64,000 nucleotides of DNA from Sipunculus nudus (taxonomy: Eukaryota; Annelida; Sipuncula; Golfingiida; Sipunculidae), in NCBI GenBank assembly GCA_026874595.1, contig CM049317.1, positions 50,494,401 through 50,558,400 of the forward strand, given 5' to 3'. This document shows positions 9,862 to 39,600 of this stretch, in pieces. Each line of letters opens with the position of its first letter. The first letter of the stretch is position 1. Both the position numbers and the translations under genes were made by a program. The notes beneath the pieces were generated by a model. That model did no database searches. It saw nothing but the letters and a program-made list of their open reading frames with translations, and was not told the DNA's origin.

Positions 9862-9972
9862 GTCAGCCATGAACTGTATTAGAAGCGTTGTTCTTCATTG
9901 CCAGCAGAAGGCGTTGGTTTATGGCCACAGCAGGAGGCACCTTTCCACCAGCTCTGTCCTGAATACACACGG
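9862..9972 (+). CDS. Coding exon 1 (leader peptide)
   Basis: The acceptor TTTTAG ends at 9861 and the donor GG|GTAAGC follows 9972. ATG at 9869-9871 is the first in the exon and sits in GCCATG. It encodes residues 1-34 and two bases of codon 35. The composition (Arg at 5, 22 and 23; several Ser, Thr and Leu; no Asp or Glu) fits a mitochondrial targeting sequence. Because an acceptor lies only 7 bases before the ATG, transcription must start in an upstream untranslated exon, or the acceptor is unused and the exon extends upstream. Confidence 0.8.
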
Positions 9973-12900
9973 GTAAGCCTCAGAAGTGATACAAAAGTAC
10001 CACACTAATGTCATGTTATGTAAGACTGTGATATATTGTTTGTCTGCAAAAAAAGTGATAATATAATCTTTTCATGGAACTTTCACTGTTTGTGTACTAT
10101 ATAAAAAAATGGATATACTGCATTATGAGCAATGAAAACCTCCACCATGTGGGGAGACCCTATTGTGGGATGCCCCAAATACTGCAGGGATCAGATGGTC
10201 AAACACATGCAGGGAAAGGCATTTTTCATTTGATACAATTACATAAGAAAAGGAAAAAATACAGAAAAACAAAATATTCCCCTCGATAATGGTACCGGTA
10301 CACTTGGAAAGCCCCAGCAACCCTGGTACCCGGCTCTTTTATGGCCCCAACAGAGCTGAGTATCAGTCAAAACCCCATTCTTTCTTTATAAGCAAATACT
10401 TTATTGGCCAATTTGTTATGTTACACTGGCCTATATTCAATCACAGAGTACATAAGAAAAAGATTGCCTGGTGTCAGCATTAGGATGCAGAACCAGTGAA
10501 CCATAGGAACACAGGTTAACGGTTCCCCGGAAATAATAAAATGGAAGTGAATGGTTGAAAGTTTGATATGATGCATCTATTGTGGAAAGCCAAATTTTTC
10601 CAGCGGAAAGGCAAAACTAGATTCATGCCTTTCTATTGGAAAGGTGAACATTTCAAAGTATCATGAACCCTGTACTGTATTTGCATTCACTTATTTGGCC
10701 CATATTCCCATGTTCCTTTGGGCTTAAGCGTTTTTTACATTTGTGAATATTCCTTGGTAACATTCCTGAATCCTGATCATGTGCCAGATCCACACCAAAA
10801 ACTTAAAAAAAAAATCTTAGGCTCATTCCCAAGTTGCCCTGAAAATACATCAGATGCCGTTTACTATTCCACAAGTTATGTTGTGAACATTGACGGAGAT
10901 AAAAGCATACACTCCTGGCGGAGGCAACTACATAGAAGTGTCTTCCATTTTTAGCTCAGCTGACTGAAAGTCATCTGAGCTATAGCGATCACTCTTTGTC
11001 CGTCGTCCGTCTGTCCGTCTGTCCGTCCGTTAACCAGGCACAAATCGTAACCGCTGGACCTAGAACCTTGTAACTTGGGATTCTGGGAGGTCCATAAAAA
11101 ATCTCCTTGGAAACCAGAAATTAGGTCTCTGTTACCCATATCCTTCGAGCTATGTGGCCCCAAAGTACCCCCCAGAAAAGTCAAAAATTTCATACAAAAA
11201 CTTCAAGATCTCATTAACTACTTGACTGATGGTCATGATTTTTGGCATACATATTGATCATGAGATGTTACATCACTTCCTGCAGACTGGTGGCGCCACC
11301 TGTATTTTTCGATTTTTTACGAATTTTTTTCTCTATTTTTGAGACCTTTAAAAATGTGAACATCTGTTAACAAGGCACAAATCATAAAGACTGGACTTAG
11401 AATCTTAATTCTTGACACACTGAGAGGTCCATGAAAAATCTCCTTGGAAACCAGAAATTAGGTCTCTGTTACCCATATCCTTCGAGCTATGGGGCCCCAA
11501 AGTACCCCCCAGAATAGTAAAAAATTTCATACAAAAACTTCAATATTTCAATAACTACATCACTGATGGTCTTCATTTTTGGCATACATATTGATCATGA
11601 GATGTTCGATCAGTTCCTGCAGACTGGTGGCGCCAGCTGTACTGTTTGATTTTTTACGATTTTTTCCTCTATTTTTGAGACCTTTGAGGATGCTGTCATC
11701 TGTTAGCGTGGCACAAATCGTAACGACTGGACCTAGAATCTTCATTTTCAAAACACTGAGAGACCTATGAAAAGTCTCCATGGAAACCAGAAATTAGGTC
11801 TCTGTTACCCATATCCTTCGAGCTATGGGGCCCAAAATTACCCCCCAGAATAGTCAAAAATTTCATACAAAAACTTCAATATCTCATTAACTACATCACT
11901 GATGGTCATGATTTTCGACATACATATTGATCATGAGATGTTTCATCAGTTTGTGCAGACTGGTGGCGCCACCTGTATTTTTCAATGTTCACGAATTGTT
12001 TTCTCCATTTTTGAGACCTTTAAGGATGTAGTTCTCTGTCAACAGGGTACAAATCGTAACGACTGGACCTAGAATCTTCGTTCTTGACACACAGGGAGAC
12101 CCATGATAAGTCTCCATGGAAACCTGAAATTTGGTCTCTGTTACCCATATCCTTTGAGCTATGGCACTCCAAAGTACAGCTCAGAATAATGGAAAATTTG
12201 ATGCAAAAGCTAAAGTATCTGAACAACTAATGCAGAGATAACCATAATTGTTTGCATGGATATTGATCATGGAGTGTTTCATTAGTTTCTGCAGACTGGT
12301 GGCACCACCTGTATTTGTTCGTTTTTTTTTTACGAAATTTTTCTGTATTTTTGAGACCTTTAAAGATATGAACATCTGTTAACAGGGCACAAATCATAAA
12401 AACTGGACCAAGAATCTTCATTCTTGACACACAGGGAGACCCATGAAAAGTCTCCATGGAAACTTGAAATTAGGTCTCTGTTACCCATATTCTTTAAGCT
12501 GTATGGGTCCAAAATACCCCCCCCCCCCAGAATAATGGAAAATTTGATACAAAAACTGCAGTATTTCAATAACTACAACACTGATGGTCATGATTTTCGG
12601 CATACATATTGATCATGAGCTGTTCCATCAGTTTCTGCAGACTGGGTGTGCCACCTCTATTTTTTTTCAAATTTTTTTTCTTTTTTTTTGAGACCTTTAA
12701 AGATGTGGTTATCTGTCAACAGGGTACAAATCGCAACAACTGGACCTAGAATCTTCATTCTTGTCATGCAAGGAGGCCCATGAAAGGTGCCTGTGGAAAC
12801 TTGAAATTAGGTCTCTGTTACCCATATCCTTCAAGCTATAGGACTCCGAAGTATCCCTCAGAATAATGGACAATTTGATACAAAAACTGAAGTATCTGAA

Positions 12901-15900
12901 CAACTAATGCAGAGATCACCATGATTTTTTGCATGGATATTGACCATTAAGTGTTTTTATTAGTTTCTGCAGACTGGTGGAGCCACCTGTATTTTTGTAT
13001 CCGCCAAAACGAAGTTTTGCGGATACTGTGTTTTTGACCGAGTTCCTCCACAGCGGCGGCGTTCGTTTCCAGAGAGCTCCTCGGAGACTAATGGACTGAT
13101 TTTTCCCAAACTAACACCTATTATCGGGTCACATGTGAACTGGTGCCTAACCAATTTGCGTTGACCTCTGACCTTTCCTCTCTATCCAGTGTCCATTTGT
13201 GGGTCTGTTTCCACTCATAAACCCTCATATCTCGGGAACCGTTTGACCGATCAGGAAATAAAATTGATACAAATGTAGCCCTTGGATTGCTTTATAACAT
13301 ACACAAAAAATGGTGGCGCCACCTGTAACCATGTTTGCACAGTGTCCATCTGTTCATCTGCCTTGGGTTAAAATCACTCATATCTCTGCAGTGAATTGAC
13401 TAATTCACCTGAAATTCGTCATGCGTATACATCCAGGATAGCTTTCTTGATTTTATGACAGGTGGCGCCACCTACGTTCACGTTCACGCTGATGACATCC
13501 AAGCTTAAATCTTGGGAACCGTTTGACCAATCAGGAAATAAAATTTATACAAATGTAGCCCTTTGATAGCTCTGTAACATACACAAAAAATGGTGGCGCC
13601 ACCTGTAACAATGTTTGCACAGCGTCTGTCTGTTAGTCTGCTGTGGCCTAAAATCACTCATTTCTCTGTAGTGGTTCGACATAACTGCCTAAAATTTTGC
13701 AGGTTTATACATCGTGGACAGCTTTCTTGATTTTATGACAGGTGGCGCCACCTACATTCTAGTTAACGCTGCACACATCCAAGCTCATATCTCAGGAACC
13801 ATTTGACCGATTGGGCCAAAATTGTGCATGTGTTTAGATCTCACATAGGTCTTTATCATACACAAAACTGGAGGGGTTACCTGCAAAGATTTTTGCACAG
13901 TGTTTGTCTGTTTGTCTGCCATGGGCAAAAATCGCTCATATACATGTAGTGGTTTGACTTTTCTGCCTAAAATTTTGCAGGTGTATACAACTTGGACAGC
14001 TTTCTGGATTTGTGGTAGGTGGCACAACCTACATACACATTTAGGCTGCAGACATCCATGCTAATATGCAACATACCTCACTCTATTTCCCCTTGCCACT
14101 CAATCCATGCCTCACTATCCGATTTTGGCAGATACATGTAGTCACTTGTCGGTTACCCGTATTCTAGTTTTAAAAGTTTACACATTTTTCTCTATTTTTG
14201 AGATATATAAATACAGACTAAATCTTGGCCTGTTGGTTAATCTGTTTGATGCTTCAGTTGAATGGGTATATACTACCATTCTAATGATAAAATTTCCTTT
14301 TGCGAATCTCTTCCCAGTCAGCTGAGCGTCATGACCCATGGGTCACTTGTTATTAATAATTTTTAAATATTTTTTTTATGGAGATAACTGCCTCTGATTT
14401 TTTAAAGCTTACTTAACAACATATATTTACATCTGCAGAATTCCATTACAGTGTGGGACTAAGTGACAGGGCAGCATCACACGCTTCCTCTCATTTTATA
14501 TCCTTGTGTTAACCAGGCCCAGTGACTACAGCACCTGTGGCCCCTGGGTGTGTAGTCATCCCCATTGCTGATTCATACCACCAAGGAGCCGCAAAAAGGT
14601 GCACTTGTTTGTAGTGAACACAACTGTAAGGTATGGCCTTCCCATAAGGTTGGGGCCAACTGTGAAAAATCTCACCGACCCGGCTGGGATTTGAAAGCAC
14701 GGTCACCCGGCTTTAAGTCCTGCGCTCTACCCCTGGGTCACAGAAGCTGGTGTGTCTACCATTGTTATCATATTCAGTTCTAGGCTTTCCACAAGATAAA
14801 TCTTTACTTATGTGGCAAATTTTGTGTTAAATGCCATTTTATCTGTAAAAAAATCTTTGTCTGATTTTTGCAAAATTTGCTCTTGGTATAGCAGGTCTAT
14901 AATTAGGAAATGAAAGAAATTTATTATATTTTGAGATGATTTATAAGCAGTTTTATAATAAGGGTATTAAAGATATTTCTAGATGATTCAAAATGAATCT
15001 TCTGTTGTCAATTGAAATAAAAAAAATATTTATTGACAAAATTTTATAATTTTCATGGGATCAACAGCTACTTTAAATTTTTAGGAAAGCCCAGATATGT
15101 CAGTTACCCTGGTAAATAATCTCTCATCTTTGTGGGAACAGCCAGTACATCAACTGTGTCCTTGTAATCCTGGCAGTGTATATAAAAGGAATCAGAGGAC
15201 TGACAAACCTCTTTTATCTTTGTAGGTCTTACAAGTTTTAAAGTATATTTAATGTGAAGTGAGCCTCATCAAATCATCTCTTGTCTTTTAAAACAAGACT
15301 TGCCTTGACAAATCTTCACTTAGTTTCATAGGACCAACAAGAACATTAAATATCTGGTGATCCCTGAAATATCTCCTTGTTTTTGTAAGACTAACTGATG
15401 AAAAAATTTTTAAAATTTTAAAGGTTAGCTCTGATTATTGTAAACTCCTAAACAAGATTTTTGGACACTTTAGCTCAGCTGACTGTAAGTCATCTGAGCT
15501 ATAGTTGTGGTCCTTTGTCAGTAGTCCGTCTAGCTGTCTGTCCATTAGAATGGCACATTTTGAAACTGTTAGACCTATGAATCCAAAATTTGGCATACTA
15601 TTAGATGTCCCCAAAATCTCCTACCATACAAAAAAATAGGTCAATATGACTTTGTTCCTTAGAGATATTCAGGCCATACCTCAAATTTCCATTAAAAACA
15701 CATTATCACACTTCAGGACTGCCTAATATCAAACCACGTATCTGTTTTTAGCTCAGCTGACTTTCAGTCATGCTGGGCTATAGCGATGGGTCTTTGTCCG
15801 TCGTCCTTCCATCTGTCCGTCCGGCCGGATGGCCGGCCTGACGGCCGGCTGTCCGTTAGCAGGGCACAAATCGTAACCGTAGGGGCTAGGGCCATGAACC

Positions 15901-18900
15901 CTATGCAGTCTTAGAGGTTCTAAAAAGATCTCCTTGCAAACCTGAAATTAGGTCACTGCAACCTATATTCTCAAAGTTATGGGGTGTGTTTGCACCCCCC
16001 AGAAATAATTCTTTTAGCCAAAATTTTCATCCAAAACCTTCCATCTTTCACATACAGCTCACGTACCAACAGGGGAAGAACCATAATTATTTTGAGGTCA
16101 CAAGGTCAAAGGTCAAGGTCACAGAACCAACTTCTTTGAAAAGCCTGTGGCTGCATTTTAAGCCAAACCTTTCATCCCAATTCTTTGATCTTTCACATAT
16201 AGCTCACCTACTAAGTGGGAGAAGAATCCTATAGATGTTGAGGTCACAAGGTCAAAGGTCAGGGTCACAGGATCCACTTCTTTGAAAAGGTTGTGGACAC
16301 ATTTCAAGGTAGACCTTTCATTCCAAACCTTTCAGCACTGATATCGCTTCTCTGCCAACAGGGGAAAAGACCTGTTGATTTTGAGGTCAAAGGTCAAGTT
16401 CACAGCACCCTCTTCTTGCGTGGAGTCATTTTCAGGCAAACTTTTCAATCTATACTTTCCATATGTCATATATGGCTTACCTTACCAATAGGGGAAGAAC
16501 CCTATTGATGTTGAGTTCAAAGTTCTAAATGCTTGTGAACATATTTCAAATGAAACTGTTCAACCCAAACCTTCAGTCTTTCACATATGCCACATCTATG
16601 CATCACTGAATGTGATTCAAACTTCATATATATGGGTCTTTTTGCATGAAGAAATAACTAATTGATTTTGAGGTCAGCTGGTCAGGAGGTTCAAGGTTGC
16701 AGGTCTAAGTTATTCACTCATTGGTTGCCAAGTAATTACACCAGCTAGATGTAAGTGGTTAGTAGTTACCCATCATTTAGAAAGAATCCAGTTGATATGT
16801 GGGCAAAAGGCCAAGGTCATAGGTCAGGGATGTTCACAATAACTTATTTTGTAGACCATCTCTATTTTTCTTGTACATATAACCATTGGTTATGGTACAT
16901 CTCACTGTGTGGCTGCAATTGTGAGTGATGCTGGTGACATATGACTCTCTTTTGTATCAGCCTGTTAAGTGATAAGGCTGAGTGATAAATACCTCGTTAC
17001 TGCATAACAAAAACACTGTTGCCGGAATGCTTCAGCCAGGCATTAAGACTGTGAGAGGTTAGTATTAAGGTTTAGCTACTGATTTATAAGATGATGGGAA
17101 CATTTTGCAGTTTATTTTATGGAATCATAGCAATAAGCTTAGTTTCCTAGATATCTGAATATTTTTATATAAATCACCAGATATAAAAGCAAATGTTTGT
17201 TCTCATAATATGTGGATGTGTACCTGGATTTAGGGTGGCTTTTTTTATTACAAGACTTTTAGTCATGCTTTCTGCATTTCTTTTCTTTCAGGTTTAGAAG
17301 TTTACCTACCCTGCTGATCCCATTGAAAAGCAGAGTGATAATAAAAAATATTGGACTTACACTTTTTACATTTGCATATCTATAAATCTAATATGAGGGC
17401 CTGAAAATGCCTTTTGAATTGTTTTGGACATTCATTACTGTAACATCCTTTGGAGAATTTGCTACAAGTTTGGTCTCTTGGTCTCTACAAGTTTGTCAGA
17501 CTTGTCAGAAATCCATTATGTCTGCCAGTTAGCCACCTTAGAAATTCTTTTGTCAGTGCAGTTTCAGTGATTTTTAGCTCAGCTGACTTTTAGTCATTTG
17601 TCTTTGTCCGTTGTCCTTCCTTCTATCTGTCCGGCCAGCCGTCTGGCCGTTAGCAGGGCACAAATTGTAACTGTAAGGGCTAGATACATGAACCCTATGC
17701 AGTCTTAGAGGTTCTAAAAAGATCTCCTTGCAGATCTGAAATAAGGTCACTGTGACCTATATTCTCTGAGTTACGGGGTGTGTTTGCACCTCCCAGAATT
17801 AATTCTTATAGCCAAAATAATCATCCCAAACCTTACATGTCAATAGAGGAAGAAACTTTTTGATATTTAGGTCTTAGGGTCAAAGGTCAATGTCACAGGA
17901 CCAGCTTCTTGAAAAAAGTTGTGGATGCATTTCAAGTCAGACTTTTCATCCCAAACCTTCCATCTTCCAAGTATGGTCAGATACCATATGGTATACCATC
18001 AGGCTTTAAATACAGGTCATGCTTGTCAGCTGAGCGTCATGACCCATGGGTCACTTGTTCTTAATATTTACCAGAAGTAATCTCCTACATATTTCCTATA
18101 TACATGCAAGAAATTAAGTCGGTTAAGTATAATTTCTATAATTTATGGGTGGGAACATTATGGATTTTGTAAAAAATCAGGAAAAATATTTACTCACTTA
18201 ACATGAAAAATATTGAAACTAGAGATTATTTTCTCAAGTATATAACTTTGTTTAATTAAGATTCAATTGTTTACCCAAAATTAGATCTGATAAAAAATAA
18301 AATTATTATTATATAGCATAAAAATAAAATAAGTACCATAAATTTTGCCAAACTTTGACCATGGCAGGTTTTTTTCCTGTAAGTACTATTGATTTAATTT
18401 TCACAGCATGTAAACATAAGTATATAATTTGTTTAAGATGACTAGGAAGTCAGCAATGCCAGGTTTTCTGATTTGTTACAGTCACTGGGGGAGATCACCT
18501 ACTGTGACAGGTGTACAGTTATTCTCAAATCACCACTCCAATCCCCCCCCCTACAAACCCAAACCACCAAGTGTTATGCAGTAATTTTTATTGTTATACT
18601 GCATCTCCTTAACTGTAATGCTGTTTCCACTCCAATGTACAAAAACTCTCCTTAAAAAAGTAATTAAAGGTGTAACTCAGAAGATGCCATGTTGTGTTAA
18701 TGTAGCATTTTTAAAGGAATCAGTTTTCTTTTATATGATTTTAACAAATATAAATAAACAGTATGAGCAAATTTATAAAATATGAAGTGAATTATGGATA
18801 AATGAAGACACAATTTAAAATTGTTAAATCTGAATCAAGTATTATTTTAAGTAATTTATTGTTTTGCTAATTCAAAAAATATATTTATAGGGGGAAAATA

Positions 18901-21900
18901 AATAAACATTTGTATGCATGATGTGGTGTTATCTGACAAGAGTGAGATTTATGATGATGCAATTTAGAATTATGAATCAACTTTTATATTCAGATATATA
19001 TGTTATATTGGAAATGTATAGAAATATAAACTAATAACAGATCATTTGTTCACAAATTGCTCACATGCTTCTGTTTTAACATTAGGAAACACATGGTCAG
19101 GTCACAAAATATTATTTACAACAATTTCTTGCTCATCAATACAAACCAATCATATGAACCAACCATGGCCTATATTATATAAATTGTATCCCCAGACAAA
19201 GTCGGGATACTATGGTTTCATGACGGTCCCGCCGCCGCTGCCACAGAAAAACCTTGTGAGCGGGATAACTCAAAAAAATATTTCACTGATCTTTTTCAAA
19301 CTTTACATTTGTATAGATATAGGTAGGGGACGAAGCCTATTTAAAATGGGGTCATGACCTATGCTAGGAAAGTGACCTTGACCTTGAATAGGTCCATTTT
19401 TGCTGAAAATAACACAAATTCTTAAATATCTCAAGTAAGCTTGCATGGACTGGTCCAAAAATCAAGGTGACCGAAGATCTTGGATAGCCTTGTGATATAC
19501 TGGAAACTGGTGGCGCCACCTATTATCCTTTTCTTGTTTTTACGCCTTTTAATACCCCCATAATTGCCACTTGACAGTACTGTAAGCATTATAAGTCAAA
19601 AACTAATGGACAGATTTCTTTCATATAATGCACATGTAGAGAGATTGGTTATGGGATGAGGTCTATTTACATTTGGGTCATGACCTTTACCATGAGAGTG
19701 GCCTTGACCTTTAATGTGTCCATATTTGGTGAAATCACACACCTCTTATGATATCTCCATTGTTGAAAGCCATATGGATTTCAAACGTGACTTATGTATG
19801 GCCCACTACTAAAGTAAGAACCCTATAGATTCTAGGGTCATGAGGTCAAAGGTCAAGGTCACTGGACTCGCATCTTAAAAGATACTGTGGATGCATTTTA
19901 AGCCAAACTTTCATCCCAGGTCTTCCATCTTGCATATATAGCTCACTTGCCAATAGTGGATGATCCATATCAATTTTTGGGTCACAAGTTCAAAGGTCAA
20001 GGCCACAGGAGCTATCTGTCAAAAAGTTAGTTTCTGGATGATGATTCCTGCTTTTATTGATGTATTGATTTCAAACTTAACTTATATATGTCCAGTTGAA
20101 AAAGCAAGACTCCAATTGATTTTGGGGTCATGAGGTCAAAGGTCAAGGTCACAGATTGTGGATGCATTTTCAGCCAAACATTTCATCTCAGACCTTTCAT
20201 CTTGCACATATAGTTCATCTGCCAATAGAGGAAGACCCCTATCAATTTTGAGGTCACAAGGTCAAAGGTGAAGGTCACAGGAGTCATCTGTCCAAAAATT
20301 AGTTTCTGGATGATAATTCCTGCTTTTATTGATGTATGGATTTCAAACTTGACTTGTATATGACCCGTTTGAAAAGCAAGACCTGAATTGATTTTGGGGT
20401 CATGAGGTCAAAGGTCAAGGTCACAGGACACATCTTTAAAAAGACTGTGGATGCATTTTCAGCCAAACAATTCATCTCAGATTTTTCATCTAGCACATAT
20501 AGTTCACCTGCCAAGAGTGGAAGACCCCTATTATTCTTGAGGTCACAAGGTCAAAGGTGAAGGTCACAGGAGTCATCTGTCCAAAAATTAGTTTCTGGAT
20601 GATAATTCCTGCTTTTATTGATGTATGGATTTCAAACTTGACTTGTATATGTCCCATTGGAAAAGCAAGACCTCAATTGATTTTGGGGTCATGAGGTCAA
20701 AGGTCAAGGTCACAGGACACATCTTTAAAAAGATTGTGGATGCATTTTCAGCCAAACATTTCATCTCAGACCTTTCATCTTGCACATATAGTTCACCTAC
20801 CAAGAGAGTGAGACCCCTATCAATTTTGAGGTCACAAGGTGAAAGGTGAAGGTCACAGGAGCTAAAAATGGGGGCCTATTCTTAAAGAGGGGCCGTACTA
20901 TGTCTGGGGATACTCTGGCACCTGCGGTGCCAAGAAATGTCTAGTTATACCTCTTCCTCTTACACTTTATCTCCATTTGATATTATTTTAGATTTTTACT
21001 TTCAAGGTCAACTTCAGCTGAGCAGAGTAGTGACCCATGGGTCCCTTGTTTTCTTTTTTTCTGCTTGGTTCTGCTCCTACTGCATTTGTTTCCAGGAAAA
21101 TTCTCTGAGATCCATGCATATAACTTTCTGTATCCTAACATCATAACAGGGTCACCTGTGAAGTGGAACCTAAAAGATGTTGACGGTGCCATCTACATAC
21201 CTTTTCATGGCTTTCATGGGTTTTCATGGTTGTTCATCTCTACATCTTTTTGGTGAACCAGTGAGCTTATGCAGTTGTGTGGTGTCGTCCGTCAACCGAA
21301 TATGTACCCATATTATCTGAAAAACAGCAGGAGCTAGCACCACCAAATTTTATGCAAAAATCAGTCATCTGAAAAAATCTATCAAATTTTCCTTTTTTCT
21401 TTGCTATCTGCATTTACTTAGATTTTAAAGGGGGGGGGGAAGCTAAAATCCTTTAAAAATATTCTTCTCCAAAACTGTCTGGCTCAATTGTTCAATATTT
21501 CACAGAAGTAATCTCTGAAACAATTTCTCTTAAGTTTGTTCGAATGATTCCTGTTTGGTGAATTTTGGCCAAGTAACAGGTAGCTGAACTTGGGCATTTG
21601 GCCAAATAAAGGATACTAATTTTTAATTACAATATCGGAAATAGCTGGAGCTATCATCACCAAATTTAATGCAAATGTTGGTCACATGACTCATATTTGA
21701 ATTTAGGGTATCAGTGGCACCACCTGCATCAACATTTTTGTCTGAGGGTCATCGGTCATCAGTACATTAACCCATAATGTTTAAGGAATAGCAGGAGCTA
21801 GTATCTGTTACATTTCTAATGTTGTGGGATTGAGCTTTTTATGGCACAACCTGCATTAACTTACATTTTATGGGGATAAGCTAAAAAAAACTTTGAAAAT

Positions 21901-24900
21901 GTTCTTCTCTGAAATCATTCAGCCAAAATATGCAATATTTCACAGAAATGATCCCAAAGTCAAGCTCTCTCAAGTTTGTTCAGATGGTTTTCGGTTAGAT
22001 GAATTTTGGCCGTGTTACAGGAAGTTGAACCTATTCATTTTGCCAAGTAAGCATACTAACATAATAATCTCAGAAACAACAGGAGCTAGCATCACCAAGT
22101 TTTTGCAAATGTTGGTCACATGACTCATATTTAAAATTGCAGTTTTTGTGGCACCACCTACATTGACCTGATTTTTACAGGCAAAAACCTCATAATTTAG
22201 CCTCTTTCAGCTTTAAAGGGGCCCAATCACCTATCCGACCTTTATAAACCTAAAGGTAATCCCTTGGAGCTTTTATTAAAAAAATGCCAGTAAACGTAGA
22301 TTTCACCGCACGCAGGCTGTTTGTTTTGTTTATATCATCATGTTTATTATATGTGGGGGCCTGGCAAAATAATTAAAACAAACTCAACAAGGGCATCTGG
22401 CAGCAAGTCAGATAAGCCAGAGCTTTGCAAATGGCGTTTTGCAACAAGTCACCTTTCTACCTCCGCACATATGCAACCTACCACATTAGGTTACATGTTT
22501 TTCCCGTTTGTCAACATTTACTATGTTTACAAACATGTTCTTGATAAACAATTTCATACATCCTTCACGAAGGCTTTATAAGAACTTTTCACAACCCAAA
22601 TTACCTTTAGATCCTTAATTTATACACAGAGGAAGCCAGAAATCACATAAATTCTTTTTCAAAAGGTAGGTGGATGGGCACCTTTAAAATATTTTATGAA
22701 GAAACTGTCAAGCTCAATCATTTAAATTTTACAAGAATTATCCTAGGGTAGGCTTTCAAACTGAGGGCTGCAGTAGTCTTCTTCTGAAAAACTGTTGTTT
22801 CAACTTCGGTAACATTGCACAAAATGACTCTTTGGAGGCCTTTGTTCAAGTTAACTTAAAGGGGCCAAATCACATATCTGACCTTCATATACTAAAGGTA
22901 ATCCCTTGGAGCTTTCATAAAAATAGGCCAGAAAACGTGAATATCTCTGCTCACAGGCTGCTTGTTTAGTGCTTATCAATGTGTTTATAATATGTGGGGC
23001 CCACCAAAATAATCAAAATAAATTCATTAATGGCATCTGGCAGCAGGTCAGATAAGCCTGAGCTTCGCAAATGACGTTTTGCAACATTTGCTACAAGTGA
23101 CCTTTCTACCTCCGCATATATGTACCTTTGCCACCCTTGGGTATATGTTTTTCCATTTTGTCAACATTGCTATGTTTACAAACACGTTGTTGATAAACAA
23201 AAATCATACATCCTTCATGGAGGCGTAATAAGAACTTTTCATGACCAGAATAAGCCTTAGATCATTTATATATACACAGAGGAAGCCAGAAATAAATATT
23301 TTTTCAAAAGGTAGATGAATGGGTTCCTTTAAATGATTGTTGGCAGAATGATTGGACCTTTAACGATGAAAGGACTGCATCTAAAAAATGTTGTGAAAAT
23401 ATCAGCTTAAATAAAAAGCATTGTAGCCAAAGTCTTTCAGCATGTGTAAACAGATTTACCAACAGGCCAAGATTGTGTCTGTATATATAAATAGCTTGGC
23501 AGACTGCCAATTATTTCAGATTTGGCAACAGGCCAAATTGGCAGACTGCCAACTGTATCAGATTATGCAACAGGTCAAGAGGTCACTCAGTGCAGCCAGG
23601 TGTAGGTCAAGAGGTCACTAAGTGCAGTAGCTGCAGCTGGCAATTTTGTTGGTTCACATGGGCCAACTGCCTTCCTTACCTGAGCTTGGTCAGCCAAGTG
23701 CACCTGACTCAAAAGAAGTTTGATGTATTTGCCTTATGTTTTGACCTGTCCATGCATCTTTGATGGCTTTCTCGTACGAAAGACTGGTGTTGCCACCTAC
23801 AATAATTTTTGCACAGTGTATGTCCCTGCTTATTTCTCAGGAGGGTTTTGATATATCAGCCTTAAATTGTGCATATTAATATATCTTGGATAGCTAGTTG
23901 TATACAAGACTAGTTGCGCCACCTACAGTAATTTTGCACAGTGTATGCTCCTGCTTATTTCACAGTCCTGAGTGATTTTACATATTAGCCTGGAATTTTT
24001 CATGTCCATACATCTCGGATAGTTTTGTTGTATACAAGACATGTGGCACCACCTACAATTGTTTCATGCATCTGTGCACATAGCCCAAGAGAGGTAAGAA
24101 GTATCTGCCTGAAATTTTGCATGTCCATACATCTTCAATGGCTTTCTCGTACACTAGACTGGTGGTGCTACCTACAATCGTTTTTGTGTTGTGTGCACCC
24201 ATGCCAGTATTTCAGCAGTGACATTTGTGTAATTGGTGCTTGTACTTGGGTTCAAAATGTTTTTATAGCACTTGCATTGTACATGTAGGCCTTGTTAGGA
24301 TCAACAACTACATTCAACACTGGGTGACCCCTGACAAATCTTCTCATTCTTTTTAGGATCAACAAATACATTTTATGCCTTGTGACCCTAATAAATTTTC
24401 TCTGGTCTTTTTAGGATCAACAAGTATATTCAATGCCTGGTGAGCCCTGACAAATCCTATTCTCTTGTGCACCTACCAGGGTTTGTTATGGGAGACATGG
24501 ATCGTTCCAGTGAGTATCTGATCCTAATGTTTTCTTGATGAAGCAGTTTATTTGTGGAATGTGGAGAATACTGTTGATGGTAATTTATATTTGCAAGGCT
24601 GAAATTTTGGCAATTTTTTCAATTTGAATGTTTTGCGAGGGTTTCATTTTTTGTGATTGCACAGACCTGATATCACAATAAAAATAAATCCCACAATAAT
24701 TCATTCATTGTATCTGCCAAAACGAAGTTTTGCGGATACTATGTTTTTGACCGGGTTCCCCCGCCGCTGCCGCCGCCGCGTTCGTTTCCGGAAAACTCCT
24801 CTGAGACTACTGGACGGATTTTTCCGAAACGTACACCAATTATCGGGTCACATGTGAACTGGTGCCTTACCAATTGGCCTTGACCTTTGACCTTTCCTCT

Positions 24901-27900
24901 CTGCCTAGCGTCTGTTTGTGCATCTGTTTCCACACATAAACCCACATATCTCGGGAACCATTTGACCGATCAGGAAAAAAATTTTGTACAAATGTAGCCC
25001 TTGGATAGCTTTATGACATAAACAAAAATGGTTGCGCCACCTGCAGCCATTTTCGCACAGCGTCCATATGTTTGTCTGCCTTTGGTTAAAATCACTCATA
25101 TCTCTGCAGTGGTTTGACCAAATTACCTGTAATTCGGCATGCATATACATCTTGGATAGCTTTTTTGATTTTATGACAGGTGGCGCCAGCTTCATTCACG
25201 TTCACGCTGCAGACATTAATGCTTATATCTCCGGACTCGTTTGACCAATCAGGAAAAAGATTCTACACAGATGTAGCCCTTGGATAGCTTTATAACATAC
25301 ACAAAAATGGTGGCGCCACCTGCAGCCATTTTTGCACAGCGTCCATCTGTTTGTCTGCTGTGGGATAAAAACACTCATATCTCTGCAGTGGTTTTACTTT
25401 TCCACCTGAAATTTTGCATGTGTATACATCTTGGATAGTTTCTAGTTCAAATAACAGGTGGCGCCACCTGCAATCATGTTTACGTGGCAGACATCCATTC
25501 TAATATGTAACACATGTAACTCTATTTCCCCTTGCCACTCAATCCGTACCTTACTTCACCCGTCCTACTCTGATTTTGGCGGATACACGTAGCCGCTAGT
25601 CAACTACCCATTTTCTAGTTTCAGTTAGTCATTATATTATGACGTCTTAAAGTCAACACATATGATTATGCATGTTTTATCATAATTAATGTGTGTTTGC
25701 ATTGGCTGGTTCCTATGCCTCGCATGCACTGGTTAGACTGCTGATTAATGAACCACGTTTTCAAAGGTGTGATAACTATTCCATTTGTGCATATGAGCAT
25801 CATCAAATCCTGGTCATCTTAGTTGCTGGGGCATCTTATTCCAAGGGTTCATATTTGAAATTATTTCCATTAGAGTAATATCCTGAAAATAAAACCCTCA
25901 CTAAAATAAAGCAATATATTTTGCCACAAGTAAGTCATTTGTCAAATAGACCTTTGATCATATGGTCAGTCAAGCCTACTTAAACAATTCCCATTACATG
26001 GTATTTTACTTGATATTTGTCTTTAGACATAGTAGCAAATTTTCTTTCGGCCTTTCACCAGGCAATACAAATTCAGTTGTCTTTAATTGTAACAGAAACC
26101 TATTTTTGTTACCGTGAATCAGTTTCAGACACATTTGACAAAATATTGAAAAATATCTATCATGAAAACCATATAGTGATTTGCAATGTGTGAATCACTG
26201 TATTGTGATATACTGATATATCGATAATAATGCTCAGCCTCTTATAATCTATAGTCTTATATGAAGTGGTGTAACCTGTGATTGTGTTTATTAGCTCAGC
26301 TGACTGAAAGTCATCTGAGCTATAGCGGTCAACCTTTGTCTGTCGTCCGTCTGTTCGTCTGTCCGTTAACCAGGCACAAAATCATAACCACAATAGACCT
26401 GGAATCTTCTAACTTGACATCGTGGGAGATCCACAAAAAAATCTCCTTTGAAACCTGAAATTAGGTCTCTGTTACCTATATTCTTTGAGCTATGGGGCTC
26501 CAAAGTACCCCCCCCCCCCCCCAGAATAATTGAAAATTTTATACAAAAGCTCAAGTATCTGAACAACTAATGCATTGATCACCATAATTTTTTGCATGGA
26601 TATTGTTCATGGGGTGTTTCATCAGTTTGTGCAGACTGGTGGCGCCACCTGTATTTTTTCTATTTTTTCACGATTTTTTTTCTCTATTTTTGAATCCTCT
26701 TAAGATGCGGTCATCTGTTAACGGGGCACAAATCGTAACAACTGGACCTAGGATCTTCTCTCTTGACATGCAGAGATGCCCATGGAAAGTCTCTTTGAAA
26801 ACCTAAAATTAGATCTCTGTTTCTCATAACATCTGAGCTATAGGGCTCTGAAGTACCCCCCAGAATAATGGAAAATTTGATACAAAAACTCTAGTAACTG
26901 AACAACTATTGCATTGATCACCATGATTCTTTGCATGGATATTGATCCTGAAATGTGTCATCAGTTTCTGCAGTCTGGTGGCGCCACCTGTATTTTTTTA
27001 ATTTTACAATATTTTTCTCTATTTTTGAGACCTCTTAAGATGCGGTCATCTGTCAACAGGGCACAAATTGTAACGACTGGACCTAGAATCTTCTCTGTTG
27101 ACATTCAGAGAGGCCCTTGAATAGTCTCTTCGGAAATCTTAAATTAGGTTTCTGTTACCCATAACCTCTGAGCTAAAGGGGCTCCGAATTACCCCCAGAA
27201 TAATAGAAAATTTGATACAAAAGCTCAAGTAACTATACAACTATTGCATTGATCACCATGATTCTTTGCATAGATATTGATCATGGAATATTTCCTCAGT
27301 TTCTGCAGTCTGGTGACGCCAACTGTATTTTTTTCGATTTTTTACCAATTTTTTTTCTCTATTTTTGAGACTTCTTAAGATGCAGTCATCTCTTAACAGG
27401 GGACTAATCATAACAACTGGACCTGGAATCTTCTTACTTGATATCAAAAGAGGTCCATGAAAAATCTCCTTGAAAACCTGAAATTAGGTCTGTTATCCAT
27501 GACCTCTGAGCTATGGGGCTCTGAAGTACCCCCTAGAATAATGGAAAATTTGATACAAAAGCTCAAGTAACTGAACAACTAATGCATTGATCACCATGAT
27601 TCTTTGCATGGATATTGATCCTGAAATGTGTCATCAGTTTCTGCAGTCTGGTGGCGCCACCTGTATTTTTTTAATTTTACGAATTTTTTCTCTATTTTTG
27701 AGACCTCTTAAGATGCGGTCATCTGTTAACAGGGCACAAATTGTAACGATTTGACCTAGAATCTTCTCTCTAGACATGCAGGGAGGCCATGAAAAGTCTC
27801 CGTGCAATCTGAAATTAGGTCTCTCTTACCCATATCCTTCAAGCTATAAGGCTTCAAAGTATCCCTCAGAATAAAGGGAAATTTGATACAAAGCTCTAGT

Positions 27901-30900
27901 ATCTGAATAACTAATGCATTGATAACCATGATTTTTAGCTGAGCTGACTGTAAGTCATCTGAGCTTTAGCAATCACTCTTTGTCCGTCATCTGTCTGTCT
28001 AGCTGTCTGTCTGTTTGTTAACCAAGCACAAATCGAACTGCTGGACCTGGAATCTTCTTTAATTGACATCAAGAGAGGTCCATGAAAAATCTCCTTGAAA
28101 ACCTAAAATTAGGTCTCAGTTATCCATATCCATCAAGCCACGGCCCCGAAGTCCCCCCAGAATAATGCAAAATTTTATACAAAAGCTCAAGTATCTGTAT
28201 AACTACTGCAATAATCACCATGATTCTTTGCATGAATATTAATCATGGAATGTTCCATCAATTCCTGCAGACTGGTGGCACCACCTTTAATTTTTTTTTA
28301 AATTTTTAGCTCAGCTGACTTTCAGTCATGCTGGGCTATAGCGATGGGTCTTTGTCCGTCGTCCTTCCGTCTGTCCGTCCGGCCATCCGGCCGGCCCTCA
28401 GGCCGGCTGTCCGGCCGTTAGCAGGGCACAAATCGTAACCGTAGGGGCTAGGGCCATGAACCCTATGCAGTCTTAGAGGTTCTAAAAAGACCTACTTGCA
28501 AACCTGAAATTAGGTCACTGCGACCTATATTCTCGAAGTTATTGGGTGTGTTTGCACCCCCCAGAAATAATTCTTTTAGCCAAAATTTTCATCCCAAACC
28601 TTCCATCTTTCACATACAGCTCACCTACCAACAGGAGAAGAACCATAATTATTTTGAGGTCACAAGGTCAAAGGTCAAGGTCAAAGAACCAACTTCTTTG
28701 AAAAGCCTGTGGATGTATTTTAAGCCAAGCCTTTCATCCCAATTCTTTGATCTTTCACATATAGCTCACCTACTAAGTGGGAGAAGAATCCTATATATAG
28801 ATGTTGAGGTCACTAGGTCAAAGGTCAGGGTCACAGGATCCACTTCTTTGAAAAGGTTGTGGACACATTTCAAGGTAGACCTTTCATTCCAAACCTTTCA
28901 GCACTGATATCGCTTCTATGCCAACAGGGGAAAAGACCTGTTGATTTTGAGGTCAAATGTCAAGTTCACAGCACCCTCTTCTTGCGTGGAGTCATTTTCA
29001 GGCAAACTTTTCAATCTATACTTTCCATCTGTCATATATGGCTTACCTACCAATAGGGGAAGAAGCCTATTGAAGTTGAGTTCAAAAGGTCAAAGGTCAA
29101 GGTCACAATATTGTTCTAAATGCTTGTGAACATATATCAAGTGAAACTGTTAACCCAAACCTTCAGTCTTTCACATATGCCACATCTATGCATCACTCAA
29201 TGTGATTCAAACTTCATATTTATGGATCCTTTTGCATGAAGAAATAACTAATTGATTTTGAGGTCAGCTGGTCAGGAGGTTAAAGGTTGCAGGCCTAAGT
29301 TATTCACTCATTGGTTGCCAAGTAATTACACCGGGCCAGATGTAATTGGTTAGTAGTTACCCATCATTTAGAAAGAATCCAGTTGATATGTGGGCAAAAG
29401 GCCAAGGTCATAGGTCAGGTCAACTTATTTTGTAGACCATCTCTATTTTTCTTGTATATATAAGCTTGCACTCCAGCTGGTACATCTCACCATGTGGCTG
29501 TAATTGTGAGTGACACTGGTGACATATGACTCCCTTTTGTATCAGGCTATAAAGTGATAAGGCTGAGTGATAAGTACCTCGTTACTGCATAACAAAATAC
29601 TGTTGTTGGAATACTTCAGCCAGGAATTAACACTATGAGAGTATAGTATTAAGGTTTAGCTACTGCTTTATAAGATGATGGGAACATTTTGCAGTTTTAT
29701 TTTATGGAATCATAGCAATAAACTTAGTTTCCTAGATATCTGAATATTTTTATATAAATCACCACATATAAAAGCAAGTGTTTGTTCTCATAATATGTGG
29801 ATGTGTACTTGATTTAGGATGGCTTTATTTTATTACAAGACTCTTAGTCATGCTTTCTGCATTTCTTTTCTTTCAGGTTTTGCAGTTAACCAACCCTGCT
29901 GACCCCATTGAAAAGCAGAGTGATAACAAAAAATATTGGACCTACACTTTTACATTTGCATATCTGTAAATCTGATATGAGCGCCTGAACATGCCTTTTG
30001 AATTGTTTTGGACATTCATTACTGTAACATCATTTGGAGAATTTGCCCCAAGTTTGGTCTCTTATTGGATGATGTGTGATATCAAATGTCAAACTTGTCA
30101 GAAATCCATTATGTCTGCAAGTTAGCCACCTCAGAAATCCTTTTTTCAGTGCAGTTTCAGTAATTTTCCTTCAATTTTTGGTCCGATTTAGAGAATGGTT
30201 GTTGTCTGATTTCAGACCTGTCAGAAGTCCAAAATGGCCACCAGGCAACCATCTTTAAATTCCTTTTGATCATATTATCTCAAGAACTGTTAAAGTGAAG
30301 GCAGTCGGACGTATATTAATGTAATCTTGCAAAGGATTGGGTCAAATATTTCTTAATAAATATTATCAGCATATATGAAAGTGCAGTACAGTTGGCTTGT
30401 ATTGAATAAAAATTCATACAGAAGAACCTTTTTCTCAATAATTCTTGCTTGGATTTCCTTGATTTTTTTGCTATATATTTTGATCTTATATTTGCCCGTT
30501 GTGGTGTTCCTTTTGAGACTGACAGGTATCAAGTAAGCTATGGGAATAGTTCTGGATACCTTAACAATCATACATTTTCCTCAGACCATCAATTCACTGT
30601 GTTTTAACCAGACATAGGTGATATATATTTCTGTTGTCGTACAAAATTTCAACAAATTGGCAAATTGGTTCTTCAAAATTTGACTGGAAGTTGTGAATCT
30701 CAGCCCATGATGTCACAGGTTATGCTTGGCAACTGAGCGCCATGACCATGGGTCACTTGTTACGATTTTTTTTTCTCTTTTTTTTTCAGACCTGCAATGA
30801 AACTGTCATCTGTTAACAGGGCACAAATTGTAACCGCTGGACCTGAAATCTTCTCACTTCAAATCTAGGAAGGTCCATGAATAATCTTCATGGAAACCAG

Positions 30901-33900
30901 AAATGAGGTCTCTGTTACCAATAATCTTTAAACTATGGGGCTGTGAAGTACCCCCCCCCCCCTCCAGAATAATAAAAATTTTGATACAAAAGATCAAGTA
31001 TCTGAATACTTACTGCATTGATCACCATGATTATGTGCATGAACATTGATCATAGGGTGTTCTGTCACCTCCTGCAGGCTGCTGGTGCCACCTGTATTTT
31101 TTCCATTTATTATGATTTTTAGCTCAGCTTACTATAAGTCATCTGAGCTATATTGTGGTCCATTGTCCGTCGTCTGTCTGTCTTGCCGTCCGTCTGTCCG
31201 TAGATTTGGCACGTTTTGAAACCCTGAGACCTAGGAATCCAAAATTTGGCACAATGTTAGATGTCCCCAAGATCTCCTACCAAGCCAAAAACTGGGTCTT
31301 TGCGACTTCATTCCTTTGAGAAATAAAGGAAAAACCTCAATTTTTTATTAAAAACATATTTTCACACTTCAAGACTGCCAAATATCAAAACCAGTCATCT
31401 GTTTTTCCTTATATTTACCATAAATAATCCTCTATATATAGTTCCTATGTACATGCCAGAAATTAGGTCTGTATTATATAATTTTAAAAGTTATGGGCCC
31501 CGAACATAATGCATTTTGTAAATAATCAAGAAAGAAATTTGATCACTTAACACAAAACTTGTTAAAGCTAAGCACTTTTTTTTCCAGTAATATAACTTTT
31601 ATTAATCAAAATTAAATTGTATCCTCAAAATTAGATCAAACTCTTTTAAATTTTTAAAAATATTAGCAAAAGTAGAAAGTTGGTACTTAAATTTTGCGCA
31701 ACTTTGACCATGGCATGTTTTTTTTCCTGTACCTGCTTTGGATTTTATTTTCAAAGCAGGTTTTGATAGCATTTCAACTGTTAACACCAAAAATTTGAAA
31801 CCAGTTGATCAAAAACAGTAGATTTTATTCAAGTTTTCAAGCACCATGTCACATATTGTTTACATCAAGCAAGTGTTATGCAGTTTGCTAGAGCTCAGCT
31901 CCCCAGCTTCAGCTCTAAGTTTTTTAAATTTGGCATACAGTTAAATTTCTCCAAAATCCCCTACCATGCCAAGAATTTGGTCACTAGGACTTAATTCCTT
32001 CGAGATATTAATGAAAAACTTAATTATTCAATTAAAAACCCATTGTTACACTTTAAGACTGCCTAATATCAAAACCACTGATCTGACTTTGATCATATGT
32101 AATGTACATATTTTTCTATACATTCACTATGCACATGCCAGAAATGATGTCAGTATTCTTTTTTTTAAAAATCAAGAAATATATTTACTCCCTTAACAAG
32201 AGGATTGCTGAAGCTTTATTGCATAAGAATGGGAATTCAGGTAAAATGAAAGTATTTGAATACCAGTGCAGATACTTTCAATATGTATTCATGAATGCAT
32301 TCATGAATATATTCTATATTATTTTAATAATCATTTCAGTTATATTTTATTTTAAAAAATCATATGATTTTCTTATTTTTTTTATTAAAAAATTATATTG
32401 GCACAATATTTGTTATTAAATTTTAATAAATAGTTAGCTCTTTTATTATATGTGCTGCTTATTAGTTATATGGCCAAGTCAAAATCTGTGTGACAATAAC
32501 ACTCCATTTGTTAATAAAATAAATGAAATCAGTCCTCTTCCCTGTCTCCAAAAATACCCTCAAAATCATACATAAGCTAAACACCAACAACTCATAATAA
32601 AGCTTATATTAATTACCACACAAAACCAGCATGTGCCTCATTCCGTAATCATAGTTTTTATCATAAATAACAGCTGAGCGCCGTGACCCATGGGTCTTTT
32701 GTTTTTTTTTTGTTTTTTAGACCTGCAAAGAAACTGTTTACTGTTAACATGGCACCATTTTGAATCTGCTGGACCTGGAATTTTCTATCTTGACATCAAA
32801 GGAGGTTCATGAATATATCTCTATGGAAACCTGAAATTAGGTCTCTCTTACCCAGATTCTCCGAGCTATGGGGCTCAGAAGTACCCCTCAGAATAATTGA
32901 AATTTTTATGTTAATTATATTTCAAATACATCTTAAAATACACTCTTTGTATTTTCATGTTCAGCTGAGCGTCATGGCCCATGGGCAACTTGTTGTTAAT
33001 TCAGTTGTCTATCTGTCATGCTGAGTTTTTGCAATTTTATCATTAAGTGCAAACAGATGTAGTCTCCCCTATATTCTTTTTCTGAATATAGATTCAACAT
33101 AAAGTTTTCTTTAAGAGATGAATCCATAAATAGTACCTCTTAAATCTTAAATTACCTGTATATCATTTATGAAAATACTATAGAGAGATAATTAACAACC
33201 AAATATTTGAACATTTTTTATTTCTTACATGCAGAAGAACACATCTCATGTGGAATACAAGCTAGGGTTATTGCTACAATAACTGATTTTTGTAGGGCAA
33301 ATACCAATTTCTGAAGAACAAGTTTATATATTACTTGCCTAATAGGAAGAGCTACTTTCAAAAGTTAATGTTCAGCCCTCTTTGTTGAAAATAACATGTA
33401 TTTCTACAGTAGTTTATATTTATTTATTTCAGGGAAAGTTGCTCCATGGAGTTTGGTTAAGCAGGGAGAGAGTGCAAGGTTACAGTCATTTGGATATTTT
33501 GATGGAGGCAGATCAAATGACTTGTTTCAGTGGCAATCCACACTTTCAAATAACTTGATGTTTCTTGTGTCTAACTCTGTTTATTTACGACCGAGGTTAT
33601 ATAAGCCAGTGGTGCCTTACCAGGAGCCTATAGAATACAGCATAAAGTTATTACAAGTTGGCAATACATCTTTCACACATCTTGAAGAAATGAGACTTGC
33701 TGAGACCAAAGAGGTTTTATGTAATTCTGTTGTCAAACTGGTAGCAGTCAACAAGAAAACCAGGAAGCCAAACACACTGCCAGATTCCTTCCTAGAGGCC
33801 TTTAAAGACATCACTCACCAAGCTCCTACACATATAGACCAAAATAAGAGAATATCAGCTGTTCTACCTCCAGTGACCTCATTTACATATAGTTCAAAGG

Positions 33901-36629: not shown

Positions 36630-39600
36630 GTTTTTTAGCTCAGCTGACTTTAAGTCATGCTGGGCTATAGCGATGGGTCTTTGTCCGGCGTCCTTCTGTC
36701 TGTCCGTCCGGCCGGCCGTCCGTTAGCAGGGCACAAATTGTAACCGTAGGGGCTAGGGCCATGAACCCTATGCAGTCTTAGAGGTTCTAAAAAGATCTCC
36801 TTGCAAACCTGAAATTAGGTCACTGCGACCTATATTCTCGAAGTTATGGGGTGTGTTTGCACCCCCCAGAAATACTTCTTTTAGCCAAAGTTTTCATCCA
36901 AAACCTTCCATCTTTCACATACAGCTCACCTACCAACAGGGGAAGAACCATAATTATTTTGAGGTCACAAGGTCAAAGGTCAAGGTCACAGAACCAACTT
37001 CTTTGAAAAGCCTCAGGATGCATTTTAAGCCAAACCTTTCATCCCAATTCTTTGATCTTTCACATATAGCTCACCTACTAAGTGGGAGAAGAATCCTATA
37101 GATGTTGAGGTCACAAGGTCAAAGGTCAGGGTCACAGGATCCACTTCTTTGAAAAGGTTGTGGACACATTTCAAGCTAGACCTTTCATTCCAAACCTTTC
37201 AGCACTGATATCGCTTCTCTGCCAACAGGGGAAAAGACCTGTTGATTTTGAGGTCAAAGGTCAAGTTCACAGCACCCTCTTCTTGCGTGGAGTCATTTTA
37301 AGGCAAACTTTTCAATCTATACTTTCCATCTGTCATATATGGCTTGCCTACCAATAGGAGAAGAAGCCTATTGATGTTGAGTTCAAAAGGTCAAAGGTCA
37401 AGGTCACAATATTGTTCTAAATGCTTGTGAACATATTTCAAGTGAAACTGTTCAACCAAAACCTTCAGTCTTTCACATATGCCACATCTATGCATCACTG
37501 AATTTGATTAAAACTTCATATTTATGGGTCTTTTTGCATGAAGAAATAACTAATTGATTTTGAGGTCAGCTGGTCAGGAGGTTAAAGGTTGCAGGTCTAA
37601 GTTATTCACTCATTGGTTGCCAAGTAATTACACCCGGCCAGATGTAAGTGGTAAGTAGTTACCCATCATTTAGAAAGAATCCAGTTGATATGTGGGCAAA
37701 AGGCCAAGGTCATAGGTCAGGGATGTTCACAATAACTTATTTTGTAGACCATCTCTATTTTTCTTGTTTTCTTGTATATATAACCATGGCACTCACAACT
37801 GGTACATGTCACTATGAGCCCATAATTGTTAGTGACACTTGTGATATATGACTCCCTTTTGTATCAGCTCATGGAGTGATAAGGATATATCATTAGTGCA
37901 TAACAAAAACACTGTTGCTGGAATGCTTTGGCCAGGCATTAAGACTATGAGAGTTAAGTGTTAAGGTTTAGCTACTGATTTATAAAATGATGGGAACATT
38001 TTGCAGTTTATTTCATGGAATCATAGCAATAAACTTAGTTTTCTAGATATCTGAATATTATTATACAAATCATCAGATATACCAGCAAGTGTTTGTTCTG
38101 ATAATATGTGGGTCTTTACCTGGATTTAGGATGGCTTTATTAGATTACAAGACTTTTAGTGATGCTTTCTGCATTTCTTTTCTTTTAGGTCTTGCAGTTT
38201 ACCTACCCTGCTGACCCCATTGAATAGTAAGCTGATAATTAAAACAAATTGGACTTGCACTTTTTACATTTGCATGTCCATAAATCTGATATGAGAGCTC
38301 TCCAACCTGATCATGCCTTTTGAATTGTTTTGGACATTCATAACTGTTACATTCTTTGAAGCAATTGCTACAAGTTTAGTGTCTTATTGGAGGATGTGTG
38401 ATATCAAATGTCAGACTTGTCAGAAAACCATTATGTCTGCCAGGTAGCCATTTCAGAAGTCCTTTTGCCAGGGCAGTTTCAGTGATTTTTTTATGATGTT
38501 TGGTCCCTTTTAGAGGATGTTTGTTGTTCAATTTCCGACCTGTCAGAAATCCAATATGGCCACCAGGAAGCCATCTTTAAATTCCTTTTGAACATATTAT
38601 CTCAAGAACTATTAAAGTGAATGCAGTGGGATGTATATTAATGTTATCTTGCATTGGGTCAAAGATTTCTTAATAAATATGACCATCATTTATGAAAGCT
38701 CAGTACAGATGACTTGTATTGAATAAAAATTAATATGGAAGCACCCGTTTCACAATAATTCTTGCATGGATTTCCTTGATCTTTTGCTATATTTTGATCT
38801 TAAGTGTGGCCTGTGTGGTATTCCTTTTGAGACTGACAGGTATCGAGCAAGCTGTAGGATTAGTTCCTGATAGCTCAACAACCATACATTTTGCCTCAGA
38901 CCATCATTGTGCCGCAGAAAAACCTTGTGAGTGGGATAACTCAAAAAATATTTCACTGATTTTTTTCAAACTTTACATTTGTATAGATAAAGGTAAGGGG
39001 ATGAAGCCTATTTAAAATGGGGTCATGACCTATGCTAGGAGAATGACCTTGACCTTGAATAGGTCCATTATTGCTGAAAATAACACAAATTCTTAAATAT
39101 CTCAAGTAAACTTGCATGGACTGGTCTAAAAATTAAGGTGACCGAAGATCTAGGATAGCCTTGTGATATACCCGAAACTGGTGGTGCCACCTATTATCCT
39201 TTTCTTGTTTTTACGCCTTTTAATACCCCCATAATTGCCACTTGACAGTACTGTAAGCATTATAAGTCAAAAACTAATGGACAGATTTCTTTCATATTAT
39301 GCACATGTAGAGAGATGGGCTATGGGATGAGGTCTGTTTACATTTGGGTCATGACCTTTACCATGAGAGTGGCCTAGACTTTTAATGTGTCCATATTTGG
39401 TGAAAATCACACACCTCTTATGATATCTCCAGTGTTGGTAGCCATATGGATTTCAAACGTGACTTATGTATGGCCCACTACTAAAGTAAGAACCCTATAG
39501 GTTCTAGGGTCATGAGGTCTAAGGTCAAGGTCACTGGACTTGCATCTTACAAGATACTGTGGATGCATTTTAAGCCAAACTTTCAAGGTCTATCATCTTG

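Follow-up and report, generated by a model that had tools for sequence, protein, structure and literature searches.

The head of exon 2 of a thioesterase-like gene in Sipunculus nudus was very probably duplicated in tandem back into intron 1, where the upstream copies appear to persist as decaying leftovers of an old coding exon. The gene lies in the window, the 64,000-nucleotide stretch of DNA analysed here (C12:50494401–50558400 of a 1.43-Gb genome). Comparison with its paralogues on the same chromosome establishes the direction in which the copies arose and shows that their number differs by whole units, and scoring of their acceptors points to what they could mean for splicing.

Three exons of the gene are recognized on the forward strand. 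Exon 1 (9869–9972), with an assumed start ATG, comprises 34 codons plus 2 nt and ends at the donor GG/GTAAGC. It was located by tblastn using a peptide common to the paralogues L003 and L004 as query (51% identity, E 1e-5); tblastn with the exon 1 peptides of L005 and L006 found no convincing exon 1 place in the window. The 14.4-kb phase-2 intron 1 (9973–24414) carries the array at its 3' end. It is followed by the 95-nt exon 2 (24415–24509), the first ~42 nt of which are the third repeat unit, and by the donor A/GTGAGT, from position 24510, of the phase-1 intron 2. Exon 3 (33433–34190), which includes the stop codon, encodes the bulk of the thioesterase domain. Both matches of exon 3 to Pfam profiles, 4HBT_2 (25.6 bits; cut-off 25.5) and Acyl-ACP_TE_C (22.3; cut-off 21), are marginal, and exons 2 and 3 together score 25.0, just below the cut-off, and 21.4, respectively. 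By this marginal profile match, the gene product may be an acyl thioesterase of the 4HBT (hotdog) type. Searched against the PDB, a profile of six family proteins matched YbgC-type thioesterases as well as acyl-ACP hydrolases, with a best E of 1.5e-5. The best stretches of these matches (n = 17 at E up to 1) start at profile position 62 at the earliest, and the matches are therefore uninformative on exon 2.

The tandem array was detected by TRF at 24291–24456 (period 58, 2.8 copies, score 195), and a repeat finder placed three copies from 24288, 24346 and 24404, with steps of 58 and 58 nt. The two programs agree with the exact 58-bp step described in the sequence-only reading, with units opening at 24299, 24357 and 24415, and the third of these units is indeed the head of thioesterase exon 2. 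The exon 2 head and its best upstream copy, at position −116 relative to the exon, are identical at 35 of 43 nt, a match reached by none of 500 dinucleotide shuffles (null mean 19.3, maximum 23).

Both upstream units are copies of the exon 2 head on the forward strand. Unit 1 (−116; 24299–24356) is preceded by a weak acceptor with the AG at 24297–24298, and unit 2 (−58; 24357–24414) by an acceptor with the AG at 24355–24356. Translation from the three acceptors gives INNYIQHWVTPDKSSHSF followed by a stop, INKYILCLVTLINFLWSF followed by a stop, and then exon 2 itself, which confirms that each upstream unit ends at a stop formed by the TAG of the next acceptor. Units of the window contain an exon-derived CTGAC (CTAAT in unit 2) and then pyrimidines, and TAG/G opens the next unit. 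The CTGAC upstream of the unit 2 acceptor provides a branch-like A at 24334, and the tail of unit 2 comprises CTAAT, with a branch-like A at 24391, together with the tract and AG of exon 2. The PDKSS codons are retained in unit 1 of the window and in the −117 copy of L002, both of which are thus exon-like upstream copies.

A protein search of the genome yielded 42 matches, of which 11, from ten genes, are located on C12 and represent the close family. The family comparison covers these ten C12 genes, all paralogues within one genome; the remaining 31 matches lie on other chromosomes and do not exceed 32% identity. Exon 2 is recognizable by tblastn in all ten genes, although weakly in L007–L009 (E 0.04–0.15, residues 9–30), and a phase-2 acceptor is readable at the corresponding place in each of them. 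The six spliced models (window, L004–L008) form a gap-free alignment across exon 2, in which residues S10, D12, S14, P21, G22, and D29 are invariant. Five genes (window, L001–L004) carry upstream copies, which in each case beat all 500 shuffles. Upstream of exon 2 in L005–L009, the best match is at chance level, being reached by 163–492 of 500 shuffles. A gene tree of nine members (L009 left out) places the five array genes on one side of a branch, with support of 75/99 and recovery in 82% of bootstrap trees, under a program warning of long branches. The tree is consistent with a single origin of the array in these five genes, with moderate support. Elsewhere in the genome, C7 and C13 contain clusters of thioesterase-like open frames (e.g., C7:14719430–14832614), many of them of about 250–316 codons and perhaps without introns in the domain.

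The presence of exon 2 in ten of ten genes and of upstream copies in five genes that group together indicates that the exon predates the array and that copying ran from exon to intron. Of the two origins proposed in the sequence-only reading, amplification of an exon head into its intron is thus supported, given that five genes carry the exon with no upstream copies. The other, in which an intronic minisatellite came first and its final unit later became coding, is suggested by the minisatellite look of the array with its 58-bp unit. However, exon 2, including its repeated part, is coded in five paralogues that have no repeat, and six family proteins share S10, D12, and S14 of the repeated part without variation, so this highly improbable origin was rejected on the evidence of the repeat-free genes. 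An ancient exon with unrelated upstream units had been named as an outcome that would speak against the original proposal; the exon is old, as judged from paralogues rather than orthologues, but its relationship to the upstream units is clear.

Several other origins were considered. A genome search with window positions 24240–24520 returned 40 matches (40 of 45 candidates scored). The array part of the query matched four places, all of them in family genes (window, L001, L002 and L003), and the other 36 matches were restricted to query positions 1–48, upstream of the array; an origin from a dispersed repeat or transposon was therefore rejected. L004 escaped the same search, and copies that have diverged strongly could therefore exist elsewhere. 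When bacterial relatives were searched, to see whether exon 2 predates animals, 57 pattern-matching stretches were obtained and none was confirmed, which is no proof of absence. A start of the duplication by microhomology (TTCTCT, which occurs in the tail of the intron and again at 45 nt inside the exon, at a distance of 62) was too weak a candidate.

Duplication of the exon head into the intron would have started from a long-established coding exon in a thioesterase of the 4HBT/acyl-ACP type. In an ancestor of the five array genes, a stretch spanning the boundary, with the pyrimidine tract, the AG and ~42 nt of exon, would have been tandemly duplicated. The copy adjoining the rest of exon 2 would have remained coding, and the upstream copies would have turned intronic, where they are now decaying, are lost or gained as whole units, and probably drift without function. 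Copies in the window, L001 and L002 follow the original order, with the intron tail first, then the AG and then the exon head. In the window, sequence from inside the exon (CTGAC plus a run of pyrimidines, encoding PDKSS) would now occupy the branch-point and tract position for the following acceptor, which allows a copy to resemble a complete 3' splice site.

The number of units, exon included, varies among the paralogues from two to five, with three in the window, two in L001, three and a fragment in L002, five in L003, and two in L004. The upstream copies comprise two in the window, one in L001, two plus a truncated fragment in L002, four in L003, the farthest of which is a weak match, and one in L004, which is devoid of tract and AG. 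The AG is kept in all five exons and in six of the ten upstream copies, namely those of the window, L001 and L002 and one of the four in L003. It is lost in the remaining three copies of L003 and in the sole copy of L004 (four of ten); two of these losses (L003 −63 and L004 −63) belong to one ancestral copy.

L001, the twin of the window gene, is 95–98% identical to it, depending on the stretch, and has exactly one unit fewer. The join in L001 lies inside the 13 nt TTAGGATCAACAA common to units 1 and 2, and its array consists of the weak acceptor of unit 1 fused to the body of unit 2, with the consequence that the −58 acceptor is absent from L001. In the unit tree, the −117 copy of L002 groups weakly with unit 1 of the window (70.7/19). 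This weak grouping favours a loss in L001 rather than a gain in the window. The two genes are in opposite orientation ~84 kb apart (C12:50.39–50.53 Mb), with intron DNA ~95–97% alike; the pair could represent a segmental duplication in inverted orientation, or it may be an artefact of assembly.

In L003 and L004, the upstream units match the window exon (0.67–0.72) better than their own exons (0.62–0.65), and in the unit tree they cluster with the units and exons of the window clade and not with their own exons. These data, which concern 43 nt, are most simply read as weak support for an array older than the divergence of the two groups of genes, with the exon of L003 and L004 changed afterwards; the grouping in the unit tree could also reflect gene conversion or separate amplifications. 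The dS of exon 3 is about 1.1 between the window gene and L004 and 0.18 between L003 and L004. The −63 copies of L003 and L004 are 93% alike, and the surrounding block 88%.

Acceptors were scored in two ways, with generic weights and with a small matrix derived from 19 family acceptors, of which 2 (exon 3 of L007 and L008) were mis-placed. With generic weights, the first acceptor of the window scores 2.7, the −58 acceptor 9.4 and the exon 2 acceptor 9.7, values reached by 30%, 1.2%, and 0.65%, respectively, of 765 background AGs at 10000–24280. The family matrix gives −5.2, 8.8, and 18.8, the last value being inflated by the inclusion of the identical site of L001 in the matrix. The two schemes thus indicate at most one serious competitor in the window. 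The proposal that each unit has its own acceptor holds in that TAG/G precedes each unit, but the strengths of these acceptors are unequal. A CTRAY motif is located at −24 from the exon 2 acceptor and at −23 from the −58 acceptor, and none occurs within 60 nt of the first acceptor. Since CTRAY is found within 60 nt in only 3 of the 10 exon 2 acceptors of the family (window, L001 and L006), the motif is weak evidence. The acceptor of 24415 is probably the one normally used, and the −58 acceptor of the window is a possible splicing liability that may cost some prematurely stopped mRNA.

Competing acceptors in the other array genes, as scored with generic weights, are a weak one in L001 (2.7), two in L002 (10.9 at −117 and 11.1 at −58), one in L003 (11.1 at −175) and none in L004. 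The −175 copy of L003 outscores the acceptor of its own exon in both schemes (11.1/14.8 vs. 8.9/10.7). The absence of a competitor common to the five array genes, together with the loss of the AG in four of ten copies, leaves the idea of a built-in, conserved splice switch unsupported. With such small numbers, selection against competitors is indistinguishable from neutral loss, and decay without function is the plainest account of the upstream copies. It is decidedly unlikely that the upstream acceptors form a regulated or tuning switch, yielding stopped mRNAs that are destroyed and so a controlled lowering of expression. The near equality of the −58 and exon 2 acceptors under generic weights, the similar placing of their CTRAY motifs and the stop reached in fewer than 20 codons from the −58 acceptor are compatible with such a role. 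On the other side stand the family matrix, which separates the same two acceptors widely even if the higher score is inflated, the lack of a shared competitor, with none in L004, a single one in L003 and a weak one in L001, and the twin L001, which has no −58 acceptor at all.

One gene, L002, has features of an exon that could have grown. From its −117 acceptor, an open frame runs through both copies into exon 2 and would add 39 residues; the generic score of this acceptor exceeds that of the gene's own exon acceptor, an AAG (10.1). The family matrix, however, ranks the own acceptor highest (18.4, against 14.5 at −117 and 17.6 at −58), the extension is seen in one gene, a TGA in exon 3 of L002 drops the last five residues, and a 39-codon open frame may arise by chance. 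Use of the −117 acceptor in L002 is thus unlikely. The more general proposition, that an array at the boundary serves as a nursery for exons in which every unit offers a 3' splice module and an exon head, so that the exon start hops upstream, is quite unlikely. If it were true, unit gain, unit loss and frame drift would shift the exon start, L002 would be an example, with its in-frame extension of 39 residues and a change of the original acceptor to AAG, and the window would retain a stop-producing competitor absent from its twin L001. As a separate observation involving L012 (C12:50394900–50395800) and L002, exon 3 of L002 is a mosaic: its first ~420 bp are ~14% (60/420) off the window, and the remaining ~330 bp have 7 differences from it. 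Exon 2 of L002 differs from that of the window at 6 of 95 sites, none of them synonymous. The mosaic suggests gene conversion between copies.

Exon 2 of the window also contains a donor-like GTGAGC (24440–24445, forward strand), 25 nt after the acceptor and coding for Val-Ser. A GT is present 25 nt past the acceptor position in 12 of the 15 units of the five array genes. In exon 2 of L003 and L004 it belongs to CAG/GTGAGT, a full-consensus donor within Cys-Gln-Val-Ser codons that is nearer to consensus than the inferred donor GTAGGT. The array-free L007 and L009 have GTGAGC at the same place, and L008 has GTCAGC. These sites would fit the splicing of units as micro-exons of 25 nt, each bounded by the GT at its 3' side, with new introns between them as in the potato case discussed below. 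Such introns would, however, be only ~33–38 nt long, a 25-nt exon breaks the frame, and exon 2 of L002, L005, and L006 has no GT at that place, which together disfavour this very improbable reading; conservation of the GT may merely reflect the Val-Ser codons.

Duplications that span an exon boundary are already published, and the duplication type found here is a known one. In the potato RdRp gene, a tandem duplication across intron 1 and exon 2 created a spliced intron with RNA-seq support (Ma, Lan and Niu, 2016, PMC4974935). There, as here, the duplicate runs from the tail of intron 1 into the head of exon 2 and includes branch site, tract, and AG; in potato, the donor of the new intron derived from the exonic part (PMC4974935). 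The potato gene is described with one duplication, whereas up to four extra units and five paralogues are seen here, with spacers that would make very short introns. Variable internal tandem repeats at exon–intron boundaries are reported in human paralogues within segmental duplications (De Grassi and Ciccarelli, 2009, PMC2812944), where unit number likewise varies among paralogues, with a possible change in splicing. Those are recent primate cases with transcript evidence (PMC2812944), unlike the present array, which seems old (dS about 1.1) and has decaying copies. Tandem duplication of coding sequence as a source of new introns is described in Drosophila (PMC2891723) and in a review (PMC3443670); duplicated exon sequence there gives rise to extra splice sites, and stops are reported in the new intronic sequence. 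The duplications treated in these sources lie inside coding exons and add an intron, in contrast to the present array, which shows no new intron. An intronic VNTR of ABCA7 affects splicing (PMC5954066) and was not judged close to the boundary array.

What is added here is the number of units, their occurrence in five paralogues, and a close pair differing by one unit. At NAGNAG sites, neighbouring acceptors a few nucleotides apart compete for one exon with a common branch point and tract. The acceptors of the array are, by contrast, 58 nt apart. NAGNAG or tandem acceptors are named in one of the sources on intron gain (PMC2891723). Related genes in which the number of upstream acceptor copies ranges from zero through one to two or more form a natural series for measuring the choice of the spliceosome among acceptors at this distance, of which the 95–98% identical pair differing by one unit is a part. 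The series also bears on how an intron–exon boundary survives multiplication of its 3' splice site.

Other repeats are present in the window. The 48-bp piece just 5' of the array (24240–24287) resembles a dispersed repeat, accounting for 36 of the 40 matches in the genome search. Long tandem arrays are located at 11029–12991, 13224–14062, 19886–20861, 26365–27933, 39445–40377, and 60605–61749. Their units are ~336, 280, and 289 bp long, and each unit length occurs at two places in the window.
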